A DNA stretch of 57,906 nt from an uncultured Planktomarina sp. (GTDB lineage: Bacteria > Pseudomonadota > Alphaproteobacteria > Rhodobacterales > Rhodobacteraceae): positions 1-57,906 of the forward strand of contig CAJWTH010000003.1 in assembly GCA_913047725.1 (NCBI GenBank). Direction: 5' to 3'. This document shows positions 11,540 to 17,634 of the stretch, one piece after another (the first letter of the stretch is position 1; every line of letters begins with the position of its first letter). The notes beneath the pieces were generated by a model. It was given only the letters and a program-made list of their open reading frames with translations, searched no databases and was not told where the DNA came from. The position numbers and the translations under genes are program-made.

Positions 11540-12232
11540 TTAAATTCTTTCTATTGGCCATTGTGACTGCTCTTCATTTAGGTGTGCTATCACAGTTTCA
11601 CCGGCAACTGCAGTTTGACCCAAGCCAACGGATGGCTCAACTCCCTCAGGTAGAAATATATCTAATCGACTTCCAAAGCGTATTAGGCCAAATCGCTCTC
11701 CCACGTTCAACATCCCCTGATTTTTTGTAAAACAAACTATCCGCCTAGCAACTAATCCAGCAATTTGAATTACGCCAATTCGAATACCGTTAGTGGTTTC
11801 AATAGTTATTGCATTTCGCTCATTGTGTTCGCTGGCTTTATCGAGAGATGCGTTCAAAAATTTACCATGGTGGTAATTTATCGCAATTACCTCACCAGAA
11901 ATTGGAGCTCTATTTATGTGACAGTTGAACACATTCATAAACACTGACACCCTAATCATGGGCGTATCACCTAGCAGCATCTCTGCTGGTGGTGTAGTTT
12001 TTGTAATTAAGGAAACAATTCCATCTGCAGGTGACAGGACAAGCCCAGGGCCTTGAGGGACAGAGCGGACTGGGTCGCGGAAGAAATAGTAACACCATAT
12101 GGTAGCTAACACTCCTAGCCAAAAAAGTGGCTGCCACACAAGCCAGAATACCAAGCTAATTATGGCAAAAATAATCACAAATTTTCGGCCCTCTGGATGC
12201 ATTGGCACAGCCACGACCTTCACCATGTTCAT
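11540..12232 (-). CDS. psd: phosphatidylserine decarboxylase proenzyme
   Basis: [37 protein letters not shown]. Confidence 0.93.
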
Positions 12233-12236
12233 TAAT

Positions 12237-12626
12237 TTATATCCAATTAAAAGTAGTTAAGATCACAAAGGCAGCGAAGATACCATTTGCGCAAAGCATA
12301 CATAAAACTGCAAGTGAGCCCAAGTCTTTTGCGTGTTTTGCTGGGAGTGACCATTCTGGCGATACCATATCGGCTATTTCTTCAATTGCAGTATTAAGTG
12401 CTTCAATGGCAAAAGTTATCAATATTAGTAATATTGCTAAGATAACAAAACTTTTCTCTGCCTGAATTAGTATAAAGATAACTACAATCAAAAAGGCTGC
12501 TAGGGTTTCGTGGCGAAAAGCCGTTTCACCCCAAAGTCTTTTTGCCCCTGCCCAAGAATATGAGGCAGCAGCAAAAATATGAGCGATACCGTGGATTTTT
12601 TCAGGTGGGTTAGTCTTTTTTGACAT
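12237..12626 (-). CDS. dgkA: diacylglycerol kinase
   Basis: [42 protein letters not shown] signature. Confidence 0.95.
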
Positions 12627-14259
12627 CAGCTTTATTTCCGCAACGATTAAAAATATCTAGGATAGGTTTATATTCCACGGTTTCGACCCCTGTCATGCCT
12701 AAGAGGCTATGAAAAAAGTTTGCATGGCTATATTTTTGAGTTGAAACTGTCCTTAAACACTCAGACGTAATACTTGTTAAGTTTTTATATGCATCTGACA
12801 ACCACACGATCATTGGAACTTTTGTTTGCTCTCTTGGTGCCATAAAATAGGGAGCACCATGAAGAAATAATCCATTTTCACCTAAAGATTCACCATGATC
12901 AGAAATATATATCATTGAAGTGGTTACACGGCTCTGTTTTTTGAGTAAAGCGATCAAATCGGCATTTACTTTATCTGTGTACGCGATTGAATTGTCATAC
13001 GCATTAACAATTTCTTCTTTAGTGCATTCAAAGAAGTTGGATGTTCGGCAAGCTGGTTTGAATTTTTCGAGCGCCCTTGGGTATCGCAAATAATAAGACG
13101 GACCATGACTGCCAATTTGATGTAAAACCAATACAGTGTTTTTTTGTATTTCTGGCAATCTTTTAGCTACTTCGTCGACTAGTATGCCATCTAAGCATTC
13201 ACCCTCGCCACAAAATTTTATATTTTTTGCGTAGGTGACTTGAGTATATTTGGCTCGTGCTGCCAGCCCCTTATCACCAGTATTGTTATCAATCCACTCA
13301 ACCTGGTAACCGGCACGTTGAATTATATCCAAGACGTTTTCCTGAGAAGTTCCTTTTTCGTAAGAGTAGTTTGCCCGTTCAAAGTTAGAAAACATGCAGG
13401 GAAGAGAAACAGCAGTAGAAGTGCCACAGCTGGAAACATTATCGTAATAAGCAATGTCTTCATTTTTGAGCTTTGGATTTGTGGAGCGGTTGTAACTTCC
13501 CAGGCTAAAACTTTGTGAACGGGCTGTTTCGCCAATAACCACAACTATTAAATTAGGCTTTCCCTGATTTCTAAAGTTTGAATTTAGAGTTGCGTCAGTT
13601 CCAATTTCTTTAAATTCCAAAGTAGCAGACCGGGTGATCATAGCTAAGTAAAGAAATGATTCAGTAATTGGGGCTAGTGGCTGAAAGCTTGATTTCAAAT
13701 CAATCCGTAGTCTTAAAACTGAAGAATTACCCTTGATATCTGTTGCAACCAATATGACGGTTCCCAGAACGCAAAACACTAAAAAAAGTATATTTTGCAA
13801 AACTGAATGGAAAAACTTTGGATGATCAACTTTAACGTAAAAGACTATTACAGCTGGCACTATACCTGACACCCCAACCCATATTAGAAAAGACCTGGTT
13901 ACAAGGTGCTTCCCCTCCATAAGCGTTGTTGTAACTACATTTTGTATCATCTCTCGATCAATTATGACCCCTAATTGGTCCATATAATATGATGTCACTG
14001 AAGATAGTATGAACAAAAAAGCAATAAATGGTTGAAGGATGCGTTTCATTGCAAAGATTGACACAAGACCGCAGCATAATAGTAGCAAAGCTAATGCAAA
14101 AACTACTCCACGGATTTTTGCACCGGCAAAGACATCATCCCAAATTGTCCAAAAAGTTGTGTTATGAAGAACAAAAATAACTGCAACCGAAATGGTAACA
14201 AGAATGAGGGGATGAACACTTCGTGTCCGCCATTTAATGTAGTAATTGAGTGGCGGCAT
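12610..14259 (-). CDS. eptA: phosphoethanolamine--lipid A transferase family protein (paralog 1)
   Basis: N-terminal TM segments; VVIGETARSQSFSLGSYNR, CGTSTAVSLPCMFS, HQIGSHGPSYYLRYP, SDHGESLGENGLFLHGAP. Confidence 0.92.
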   Translation of the reverse strand: MPPLNYYIKWRTRSVHPLILVTISVAVIFVLHNTTFWTIWDDVFAGAKIRGVVFALALLLLCCGLVSIFAMKRILQPFIAFLFILSSVTSYYMDQLGVIIDREMIQNVVTTTLMEGKHLVTRSFLIWVGVSGIVPAVIVFYVKVDHPKFFHSVLQNILFLVFCVLGTVILVATDIKGNSSVLRLRIDLKSSFQPLAPITESFLYLAMITRSATLEFKEIGTDATLNSNFRNQGKPNLIVVVIGETARSQSFSLGSYNRSTNPKLKNEDIAYYDNVSSCGTSTAVSLPCMFSNFERANYSYEKGTSQENVLDIIQRAGYQVEWIDNNTGDKGLAARAKYTQVTYAKNIKFCGEGECLDGILVDEVAKRLPEIQKNTVLVLHQIGSHGPSYYLRYPRALEKFKPACRTSNFFECTKEEIVNAYDNSIAYTDKVNADLIALLKKQSRVTTSMIYISDHGESLGENGLFLHGAPYFMAPREQTKVPMIVWLSDAYKNLTSITSECLRTVSTQKYSHANFFHSLLGMTGVETVEYKPILDIFNRCGNKADVKKD

Positions 14260-14262
14260 AAA

Positions 14263-15027
14263 TTATTTTTCCAATTTAGAAGCAGACCTGCGAATAAATA
14301 CAAAGACTGGGAGTGTCAGTAAATACACGACATTGCCTATTAGCAAAGTTTCCCAAGGGAAAACAATTAGGCACACCAAAATTGCTAGGATAGTTAGAAT
14401 AATGGGCAGATTCATCGAAGTAGGGAAATTAGCGTCTTTTAACGAAATTGTTGGAAATGTGCCCACAGCGAGCGCACCACAAATCACCAGGAATATCATG
14501 GTAGCTATTGTATAATGCTCAGAGACATCAATTCCCATCATAACCAAAAATAATGGTGATAAGCCAAGGCAGGCCAAAGCCGGTGCTGGTACGCCAATAA
14601 AGTCGTTTGTCTTTAATTTCTGGCCTATCGCTTCTTCTTCATTTTGATTTACGTTAAATCGTGCAAGGCGAAGTGCACAACAAACTGCAAAAACCATGAC
14701 TGATATCCAGCCAAAACTGGATATGGAGGAATTTGCAAAAATTGTGAAATAAATAATAAGTGGTGTTGCTATGCCAAAATTAAAAAAATCAGCGAGAGTG
14801 TCCAATTCAGCACCAATTTTGCTTTCGCTTTGTAAGGCTCGTGCAAGTCCACCGTCGATCACGTCTAAAATCATGGCAAAAATTAAAAGGTAAAGTGCCA
14901 AATTTACATTTCCCTGAAGAGCCATTTTAACAGCAGTCAGTCCAACACAAATCCCAAAAATTGTTACAATATTTGGCAAAGACTTTGATAATGGTTCACG
15001 AGGTGGTTCGGTGATCATTTTATCCAA
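14263..15027 (-). CDS. pssA: CDP-diacylglycerol--serine O-phosphatidyltransferase
   Basis: CDP-alcohol phosphatidyltransferase motif DVIDGGLARALQSESKIGAELDTLADFFNFG. Confidence 0.92.
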   Translation of the reverse strand: MDKMITEPPREPLSKSLPNIVTIFGICVGLTAVKMALQGNVNLALYLLIFAMILDVIDGGLARALQSESKIGAELDTLADFFNFGIATPLIIYFTIFANSSISSFGWISVMVFAVCCALRLARFNVNQNEEEAIGQKLKTNDFIGVPAPALACLGLSPLFLVMMGIDVSEHYTIATMIFLVICGALAVGTFPTISLKDANFPTSMNLPIILTILAILVCLIVFPWETLLIGNVVYLLTLPVFVFIRRSASKLEK

Positions 15028-15644
15028 CTCCGAAATTTGTGGCCTAAACGAGTACGAAATTCTAAAAATTTAGTAGAAAAGAGTGCGGCTACTAAAAGAC
15101 CAGTAGCCGCTCCGGCGATAGTGGCCGAGATTGTGTGTCTATCAAGCATCACGCGAGCGTACATTGTGCACAATAAAACAGGAATAACTATCATTGCGAA
15201 CCACCAGCTATACCGTCGCATCACAAAGTAAGCGGTGGCGCCTGCCAGCGCTGAGTGGCCAGATGGTGTGTTGTGTTTACTTGTTGACGAAAATGGTCTT
15301 TGTCCAAGTCTTGTACCCATAATTTTGACATTATTTAGAAGTCTTTTAGGGCCATGAGATGCAATAATTCCTGAAACAGCGATAACTAAAATTTGCTTGA
15401 ATCCGGCTTTGTCCCTACTAATAATTGCTAAGGCAAATGGCATAAGTGTGTTAATATGACGACCGTATTTTTCTGTTGAAACAACAAATGGCATGTCTTC
15501 CCCACCTCTGGATGCAGAGTAATCGTTTTTTAAATCGCTAGGGTATAGTGCGGATATAAGGATTATTGTGACAAGAAGCACAATAGGAACAGTGTATGTA
15601 TGAAATACTTTAATAGGTTGTCTGAGTATTTCAACGAAGGTCAT
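15015..15644 (-). CDS. lpxE: PAP2-family phosphatase, LpxE-like (lipid A 1-phosphatase of Helicobacter type)
   Basis: GPKRLLNNVKIMGTRLGQRPF, TPSGHSALAGATAYFVMRRYSWW, YARVMLDRHTISATIAG; start set at MTFVEILRQ just after the eptA2 stop. Confidence 0.75.
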   Translation of the reverse strand: MTFVEILRQPIKVFHTYTVPIVLLVTIILISALYPSDLKNDYSASRGGEDMPFVVSTEKYGRHINTLMPFALAIISRDKAGFKQILVIAVSGIIASHGPKRLLNNVKIMGTRLGQRPFSSTSKHNTPSGHSALAGATAYFVMRRYSWWFAMIVIPVLLCTMYARVMLDRHTISATIAGAATGLLVAALFSTKFLEFRTRLGHKFRSWIK

Positions 15645-15645
15645 T

Positions 15646-17259
15646 TCAAGAGCCTCCACTGCGTGTGTTGAAAATATCAAAATGTGGTTTGTAAATATCG
15701 CTTCGCATTTGGAACGCACCCATCACGCTGTGAAAAGGATAATCGTGCGGAAGAGTTATATCTGTTAGAATGCTAGCGTTAGTTAAGTTTCGGGATTTTT
15801 TAAAACTATCTGACATCCAAACCATAAAGGGAACGCGTCTCTGCTCAGGAGGCGCAATAGCAATTGGTGCTCCGTGAAGATAGTAACCGTTCTCGCCCAA
15901 AGATTGTCCATGGTCCGAAACATAGATCATGGTGGCGTTGGTTTGTTCCAGACTTTTAAGTTGGCTTATCAGATTTGCGATCACTTGGTCTGTAAAACGA
16001 ATCGTATTATCATAAGCATTAATTAGCTCTTGCCTGGTACATTTTGCGATTTGAACAGTTTTGCATACAGGCGAAAAATGTTCGTACTCTGGTGGGTACT
16101 TTTTATAGTAAGCTGGTCCATGGCTTCCGGTAAGGTGTAAAGTTACAAAAACTCGATCGGCATTTGCCTCTTTTAATAGTTTGTCTAGGTTCCAAATTAG
16201 GGTGTCATCGTAGGCGCCAGATGGACAGTTTGTATCAATACAACTGTCTGAGATGTCTTTGGTAGTCTGATAAATGTTCACAGTCATTGGTGGTGGGCCA
16301 GAATTATTTGTTCGATAAATTGTCTTAATGCCATGACGCGTCAAATAACTCGGCAGTGGCTCAAACTTTGTACGTGAGGGTGCCTGCTGACCCTCATGAG
16401 TAAAAATACATGCGGCCGATGATATCGTATTAGTAGAACACGACAGTCCAATTGGAAATATTGCTAATTGGTGATCTTTTGTAAAAGGGTTGGTATTTTT
16501 TTTGTAACCTAGCAATGAAAAGTTATCCGCACGAGCTGCCTCTCCTAAGACAAGAACTACCACTTCTCTTTTAGCAGGTTTTTCAGAAAGGAAATATCCG
16601 TCTGGAAGAAGTGTTTGCTCACGGTTATCCAAGGCTGAGCGATTAAAGTGCCTGGCAGTATTTACGATGTAAGACCAAGGAAGAATTTTCCCACCCATTC
16701 GTGAAGCATGGTTGTCGTACCACAGCATCGTAAACGATGTCATCGTTATCCAAATAGCTAAAATCAAAATTGACCCTATTCCATACCCAAATCTCCAAAC
16801 CCGTTTTGGGACATCTAAATTGATGGATAAAACAAAGAGTGCAGGTACCAAACCTAAAAAGAATGTAGGCACAATGACTGAAATATGTAGAAGTTCTGTG
16901 GCCTCTCGGGAGTCTGTATTTAATACATTTGCTATCATGGATCGGTCAATTTCGATCCCATAGCTAATCATAAAATACAGCCCAAAGGCATTACAAATAA
17001 ATAAAACCGTAACCACCCACCGCATCAGTGAAACTGATAAGCCAGATAAAAGAAACAAGCTTGCAGCTAGCAGGCAAATTTGGAGGATTTGGAGAGAAAT
17101 TATCTGAATTATACCGCCAGAGCTTCTTAAATCACTGACTGTTAAAGCATAATCGAGAAGAGGACTTTGGAACGCAATTAAATTAAATATGCAAACTATC
17201 ATCACAAAGGATACCAAGCTTATTCTTAGCGCCCCTAGCCATTTTAGAAAATTTTGCAA
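15646..17259 (-). CDS. phosphoethanolamine transferase, EptA family (paralog 2)
   Basis: LVLGEAARADNFSLLGYKKNTNP, CSTNTISSAACIFT, HLTGSHGPAYYKKYP, SDHGQSLGENGYYLHGAP. Confidence 0.9.
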   Translation of the reverse strand: MQNFLKWLGALRISLVSFVMIVCIFNLIAFQSPLLDYALTVSDLRSSGGIIQIISLQILQICLLAASLFLLSGLSVSLMRWVVTVLFICNAFGLYFMISYGIEIDRSMIANVLNTDSREATELLHISVIVPTFFLGLVPALFVLSINLDVPKRVWRFGYGIGSILILAIWITMTSFTMLWYDNHASRMGGKILPWSYIVNTARHFNRSALDNREQTLLPDGYFLSEKPAKREVVVLVLGEAARADNFSLLGYKKNTNPFTKDHQLAIFPIGLSCSTNTISSAACIFTHEGQQAPSRTKFEPLPSYLTRHGIKTIYRTNNSGPPPMTVNIYQTTKDISDSCIDTNCPSGAYDDTLIWNLDKLLKEANADRVFVTLHLTGSHGPAYYKKYPPEYEHFSPVCKTVQIAKCTRQELINAYDNTIRFTDQVIANLISQLKSLEQTNATMIYVSDHGQSLGENGYYLHGAPIAIAPPEQRRVPFMVWMSDSFKKSRNLTNASILTDITLPHDYPFHSVMGAFQMRSDIYKPHFDIFNTRSGGS

Positions 17260-17634
17260 AGCAATAAGTTCCCTCGTTTAATTGTCAAATATCAGAAGAC
17301 ACATCTACGTCAACTCGTTGAGTTTTGATCATATGGGATGTCTTGAGCCAAGTGATGACATAAGCCAAAAAAATTGCCTTTTATAATTAATTTTTGTTAA
17401 TTTACGCCATAAAGTTTGTTTAATATGCTTAATTTTTAATATCGATTTTGGTGGATAAGTTTTCTTGTTAGAATTCTATGATAGTATAACTAAATACTTT
17501 ATAAAGTAGCTGCTAGAGATCTGCCATAGTTTTTCTAATCGTGTACTGTTAGGTTTAGTTTCCTGAATTAAATTTTAATTTGGTACCAATCCAAATACTG
17601 AGATTAATTGGTTTATTGTGAGAGAGGCGAAAAT

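Follow-up and report, generated by a model that had tools for sequence, protein, structure and literature searches.

Transfer of phosphoethanolamine (PEtN) consumes phosphatidylethanolamine (PE) and makes diacylglycerol, and the diacylglycerol kinase DgkA is linked to PEtN-transferase function. The window, that is, the whole 57,906-nucleotide stretch of Planktomarina DNA analyzed here, carries genes for donor synthesis, transfer and by-product recycling in an apparent single transcription unit, in a bacterium from a group that ranks among the most abundant in the ocean. The question is whether this locus is a self-supplying surface-modification module, as a first-pass annotation had it, or an operon for general PE synthesis that also carries modification genes. 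We consider it probable, judging from gene content and arrangement, that the six-gene operon combines pssA and psd, the sole PE-synthesis pair detected, with a module of two arms for adding PEtN to lipid A.

In such a module, LpxE would remove the lipid A 1-phosphate, EptA2 would put PEtN from PE on the freed 1-position, and EptA1 would add PEtN to a phosphate that remains, most likely at the 4' position. Each transfer would leave diacylglycerol, which DgkA would rephosphorylate to phosphatidic acid; CdsA, encoded outside the operon, together with PssA and Psd would rebuild PE. The acceptor positions on lipid A and the flux through the cycle are what we infer here.

Layout and selection of the six genes

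The ORF map has all six genes on the minus strand at 11540–17259, in the transcription order eptA2 > lpxE > pssA > eptA1 > dgkA > psd, and family scans agree with all six names; in place, strand, order and identity the first-pass annotation was correct (Table 1). For lpxE and pssA, the start of the longest ORF lies too far upstream, and ATG starts at 15644 and 15018, respectively, were adopted instead. With these, the five junctions measure +1, -4, +3, -17 and +4 nt in transcription order, spacings that are identical in two relatives and nearly identical in a third. The next gene on the same strand, htpG, lies 166 nt downstream of psd. The gene spacing suggests that the six genes may be co-transcribed and co-regulated; in a promoter/terminator scan, no promoter signal exceeded that of shuffled sequence.

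Table 1. Coordinates of the six genes and of the adjoining intergenic region in the window.
Feature	Position	Strand	Remarks
eptA2, phosphoethanolamine transferase, Helicobacter-EptA-like	15646..17259	-	TTG start, operon gene 1; PF08019 + PF00884, NF007160
lpxE-like, PAP2 lipid A 1-phosphatase	15015..15644	-	ATG 15644; PF01569, NF007159
pssA, CDP-diacylglycerol-serine O-phosphatidyltransferase	14263..15018	-	ATG 15018, 4-nt overlap with lpxE stop; PF01066
eptA1, Neisseria/E. coli-type lipid A phosphoethanolamine transferase	12610..14259	-	NF028537, PDB 5fgn
dgkA, diacylglycerol kinase	12237..12626	-	PF01219, alignment to E. coli DgkA 3ze5
psd, phosphatidylserine decarboxylase	11540..12232	-	PF02666, NF003677
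Intergenic region, presumed promoter region	17260..17607		348 nt, between eptA2 and divergent FAD-linked oxidase gene

The ratio dN/dS is 0.06–0.25 in all six genes within the window's own Planktomarina subgroup, demonstrating purifying selection, and congeners retain the gene order even where protein identity falls to approximately 60%; together these observations argue that the arrangement is more than chance. A lone assembly artefact was ruled out, since the six-gene order recurs in independent assemblies.

The PEtN transferases and the LpxE-like protein

EptA1 has the EptA_B_N and Sulfatase domains, scores 531 bits against NF028537, above the cut-off of 500, and has PDB 5fgn as its closest solved structure (E=6e-94). 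EptA2 has the same two domains and scores 526 bits against NF007160, the model of the H. pylori-type EptA (cut-off 561), compared to 331 bits against the E. coli-type EptA model. In the alignments, residues E244, T280, D454, H455 and H467 of EptA1 are invariant in relatives, and E240, T276, D449, H450 and H462 of EptA2 are likewise invariant; as in the N. meningitidis enzyme, we take these to be the metal site and the nucleophilic Thr. Both proteins belong to the EptA/MCR family, with its membrane domain, sulfatase fold, and metal-site and Thr residues, and a tree of 49 sequences places them in separate clades (support 100/100). The search for EptA2 among the genome contigs reached 19 loci, and its likeness to the Helicobacter enzyme is judged from profile scores. 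A third, divergent EptA gene is found elsewhere on the chromosome of the congener G004 (L118:7926-9548).

The LpxE-like protein matches the PAP2 family (PF01569, 39.6 bits) and the LpxE model NF007159 (162.5 bits, cut-off 177). Of the PAP2 motifs, PSGH is kept, as are the R and H of motif 3. The canonical form of motif 3, SRxxxxxHxxxD, ends in Asp, and this residue is Ala in 10 of 10 LpxE-like sequences aligned. No PDB sequence match was found for this protein, and its structure prediction has a mean pLDDT of 50. PAP2 proteins act on several substrates, and this replacement could also fit a different reading, namely that the acceptor is another surface glycan or a protein and that the PAP2 protein is a phosphatidate or undecaprenyl-pyrophosphate phosphatase. 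We regard this as quite unlikely, given that the best family match is LpxE, that the homolog L126, adjoining a gene of the same EptA2 type, passes the equivalog cut-off of 177 with 192.6 bits, that the eptA2-lpxE pair recurs, and that the lipid A pathway gene lpxC is present, encoded elsewhere. A defense-system reading of the locus was dropped, as PADLOC returned no match for EptA2 or LpxE.

Characterized systems offer close parallels. In Helicobacter pylori and Capnocytophaga canimorsus, the lpxE-eptA pair strips lipid A of its 1-phosphate and attaches PEtN at that position, and the C. canimorsus operon was shown to give 1-PEtN lipid A (PMC4730577). Here, too, an H. pylori-type EptA adjoins an LpxE-like PAP2 phosphatase; unlike in those species, eptA2 precedes lpxE, and the two are fused to pssA, eptA1, dgkA and psd. 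Co-expression of dgkA with mcr-3 yields maximal colistin resistance (PMC7559476), and in the eptA-dgkA pairing, too, a PEtN transferase is followed by DgkA in keeping with diacylglycerol recycling (PMC7559476, PMC10285318). In Planktomarina EptA1 is likewise directly followed by DgkA, but unlike mcr-3-dgkA this pair is preceded by pssA and followed by psd, and it is chromosomal, with no sign of resistance-plasmid mobilisation. The psd-pssA pair of Alphaproteobacteria encodes the same two PE-synthesis enzymes in adjacent genes, whereas in Planktomarina the order is reversed, the pair is split by eptA1-dgkA, and both genes belong to a separate clade. We found no paper on the combined six-gene operon in a literature search that covered few subscription journals, and no Planktomarina lipid A structure in the literature searched. 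The parts are all known; the combined arrangement, which we did not find described, would be the new part.

Genes of PE synthesis and the lipid cycle

Psd is recognized by PF02666 (152.7 bits) and by NF003677 (356 bits, above the cut-off of 315). PssA matches PF01066 (72.3 bits) and TIGR00473 (86.7 bits, below the cut-off of 107), its best PDB match is PssA 7pow, and inspection of the sequence identified the CDP-alcohol motif DGxxARxxxxxxxxGxxxDxxxD as DGGLARALQSESKIGAELDTLAD. Since EptA2, LpxE and PssA score below the NCBIfam equivalog cut-offs, their assignments are strong, not formal. DgkA belongs to its family (PF01219, 77.4 bits), and its Glu/Asn/Glu and AKD active-site segments are kept relative to E. 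coli 3ze5.

Profile searches for a second pssA or psd covered the window's genome (G000, a Planktomarina MAG of the marine Roseobacter RCA cluster, 2.13 Mb, 86% complete) and a complete single-contig congener (G012, 3,288,122 bases), and found none in either. Psd is single-copy in both, and the remaining CDP-alcohol transferases are PgsA and a phosphatidylcholine-synthase-like (Pcs-like) protein; a second, housekeeping psd/pssA pair elsewhere was rejected on this basis. RCA isolates contain PG, PE, PA, acyl-PG and ornithine lipid, PE being among the major phospholipids (PMC7779409). As the operon genes are the sole ones detected for PE synthesis and PE is present in RCA isolates, PssA and Psd most likely make bulk PE rather than a private donor pool. 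Because the PE genes would also serve bulk membrane synthesis, the surface-modification half may be viewed as a dispensable extra attached to a PE operon with a housekeeping role.

The first-pass annotation had proposed the loop PE > DAG > PA > CDP-DAG > PS > PE with only CdsA outside, and this logic is sound: CdsA is encoded elsewhere (G000:C144, G012:C1:1635593), and the cycle does not lie wholly within one operon. DgkA, for its part, is not unique: away from the operon, the window's genome carries a second DgkA-family gene (G000:C53:2713-3012). The operon dgkA is the only DgkA-family copy found in G012, G017, G004, G002 and G006.

Retention, decay and origin of the linkage

Among 20 congeneric genomes, psd is found in 13, always in the six-gene cluster or in a reduced form of it. 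The arrangement is not confined to the window: the order is intact in seven of the 20 genomes (the window, L053, L055, L058, L059, L061 and L062), including L055, whose lpxE is interrupted by a stop codon two codons short of where its match ends. The cluster occupies two chromosomal sites (gene names read from ORFs): in one subgroup it is flanked by htpG and the oxidase gene, whereas in the other its neighbors are a sarcosine-oxidase operon and a glutamate-dehydrogenase-like gene.

In six congeners retaining pssA and psd, eptA1, eptA2 or lpxE is broken or gone: in G012 eptA2 has a frameshift and a stop, and lpxE a stop; in G004 eptA2 is split by an IS3-like transposase ORF (L054:15077-15919, identity read from the sequence) and lpxE is shifted; in G007 the reading frames of both eptA genes are changed (in a draft MAG this may reflect errors of sequencing; G012, however, is complete); G001 has lost eptA1 and keeps a partial dgkA with remnants of eptA2 and lpxE; and in G002 and G006 only pssA, dgkA and psd remain. 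Two draft genomes, G009 (L116) and G016 (L117), have eptA2-lpxE with a convergent dgkA; no psd was found in either. Three congeners that are 94–98% complete (G011, G013 and G019) yielded no psd, pssA or eptA, only a weak CDP-alcohol transferase match, of a type whose counterpart in the window's genome resembles phosphatidylcholine synthase; they are predicted to make no PE, that is, some RCA-cluster species should lack this lipid. The linkage of pssA/psd to eptA is not obligate, as demonstrated by the six congeners with damaged modification genes and by the three near-complete ones without a PE pathway. Congeners with intact, half-dead and absent versions of the operon offer a ready comparison.

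The claim of the first-pass annotation that the module is dedicated and self-supplying proved too strong, since pssA and psd are the only detected PE pathway of a group in which PE is a major lipid and are retained where eptA and lpxE decayed. The same decay, in which pssA, dgkA (truncated in G001) and psd persist, could be taken further: the locus might be no more than a housekeeping operon for PE, set in a compact genome, with eptA, lpxE and dgkA as passengers having no functional coupling to donor supply. The abundance of PE in RCA isolates (PMC7779409) agrees with this, as does the fact that, of the arrangements seen at the Rhodobacteraceae loci examined, psd-pssA lacking eptA is the most frequent. 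We find this explanation doubtful, however, because the gene order is kept at both chromosomal sites, dgkA is found mostly in genomes with eptA, and the linkage of eptA1-dgkA with psd-pssA is seen again in other genera, where it goes back to a single pssA/psd clade.

This linkage was surveyed in 297 sampled Rhodobacteraceae genera, 24 of which have an EptA1-type gene. Apart from Planktomarina there are 23 of these; 16 of them have dgkA next to eptA1, and three (G022, G081 and G123) have psd-pssA next to it. A simpler unit, eptA1>dgkA>psd>pssA, is present in G022, G081 and Ascidiaceihabitans L127, and in the latter it converges on eptA2>lpxE. The unit consists of the same four genes as in Planktomarina, with pssA and psd of the same eptA-linked clade; it differs from the Planktomarina operon in its order and in not being fused with eptA2-lpxE. 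The eptA-linked pssA and psd genes, including those of Planktomarina, form their own clades (support 100/99 and 100/100, respectively) apart from the usual Rhodobacteraceae pair, which indicates that their linkage to eptA is old. The pssA clade also includes two Loktanella genes adjoining dgkA. By profile score, a biased measure here since the profile itself derives from this lineage, the eptA-linked pssA lineage occurs without eptA in G104, G237, G163 and G086, in the last with dgkA.

These distinct clades might suggest that the operon PssA and Psd are specialized for PE directed to EptA, i.e. a dedicated donor supply. Such specialization seems very improbable, as no other PE genes were detected in the genome and the two genes are kept in congeners with dead or missing eptA genes and, in the case of pssA, also have relatives of the same lineage without eptA (G104, G237 and G163, again by profile score). 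The simplest history would be that eptA1-dgkA and a psd-pssA pair were joined once, long ago, in which the four-gene unit of the other genera is precursor-like, followed in Planktomarina by fusion with eptA2-lpxE, reordering and repeated loss of modification genes. It is a bolder and, in our opinion, unlikely proposal that in Rhodobacteraceae a specialized PssA/Psd lineage evolved together with EptA1-DgkA and took the place of the usual pair, bringing bulk PE of Planktomarina under an envelope-modification operon; if true, membrane lipid composition would be coupled to PEtN decoration of lipid A in a dominant ocean bacterium.

Two further observations concern the distribution of these genes. 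No PF02666 phosphatidylserine decarboxylase was found in some Rhodobacteraceae genomes that are 98–99% complete (for example G020, G030, G032 and G034), suggesting that PE is dispensable in parts of this family. Outside Rhodobacteraceae, a lone EptA2-type gene was observed in the Rhizobiaceae MAG DT_97 (L133), which may reflect a transfer or a misbinned contig.
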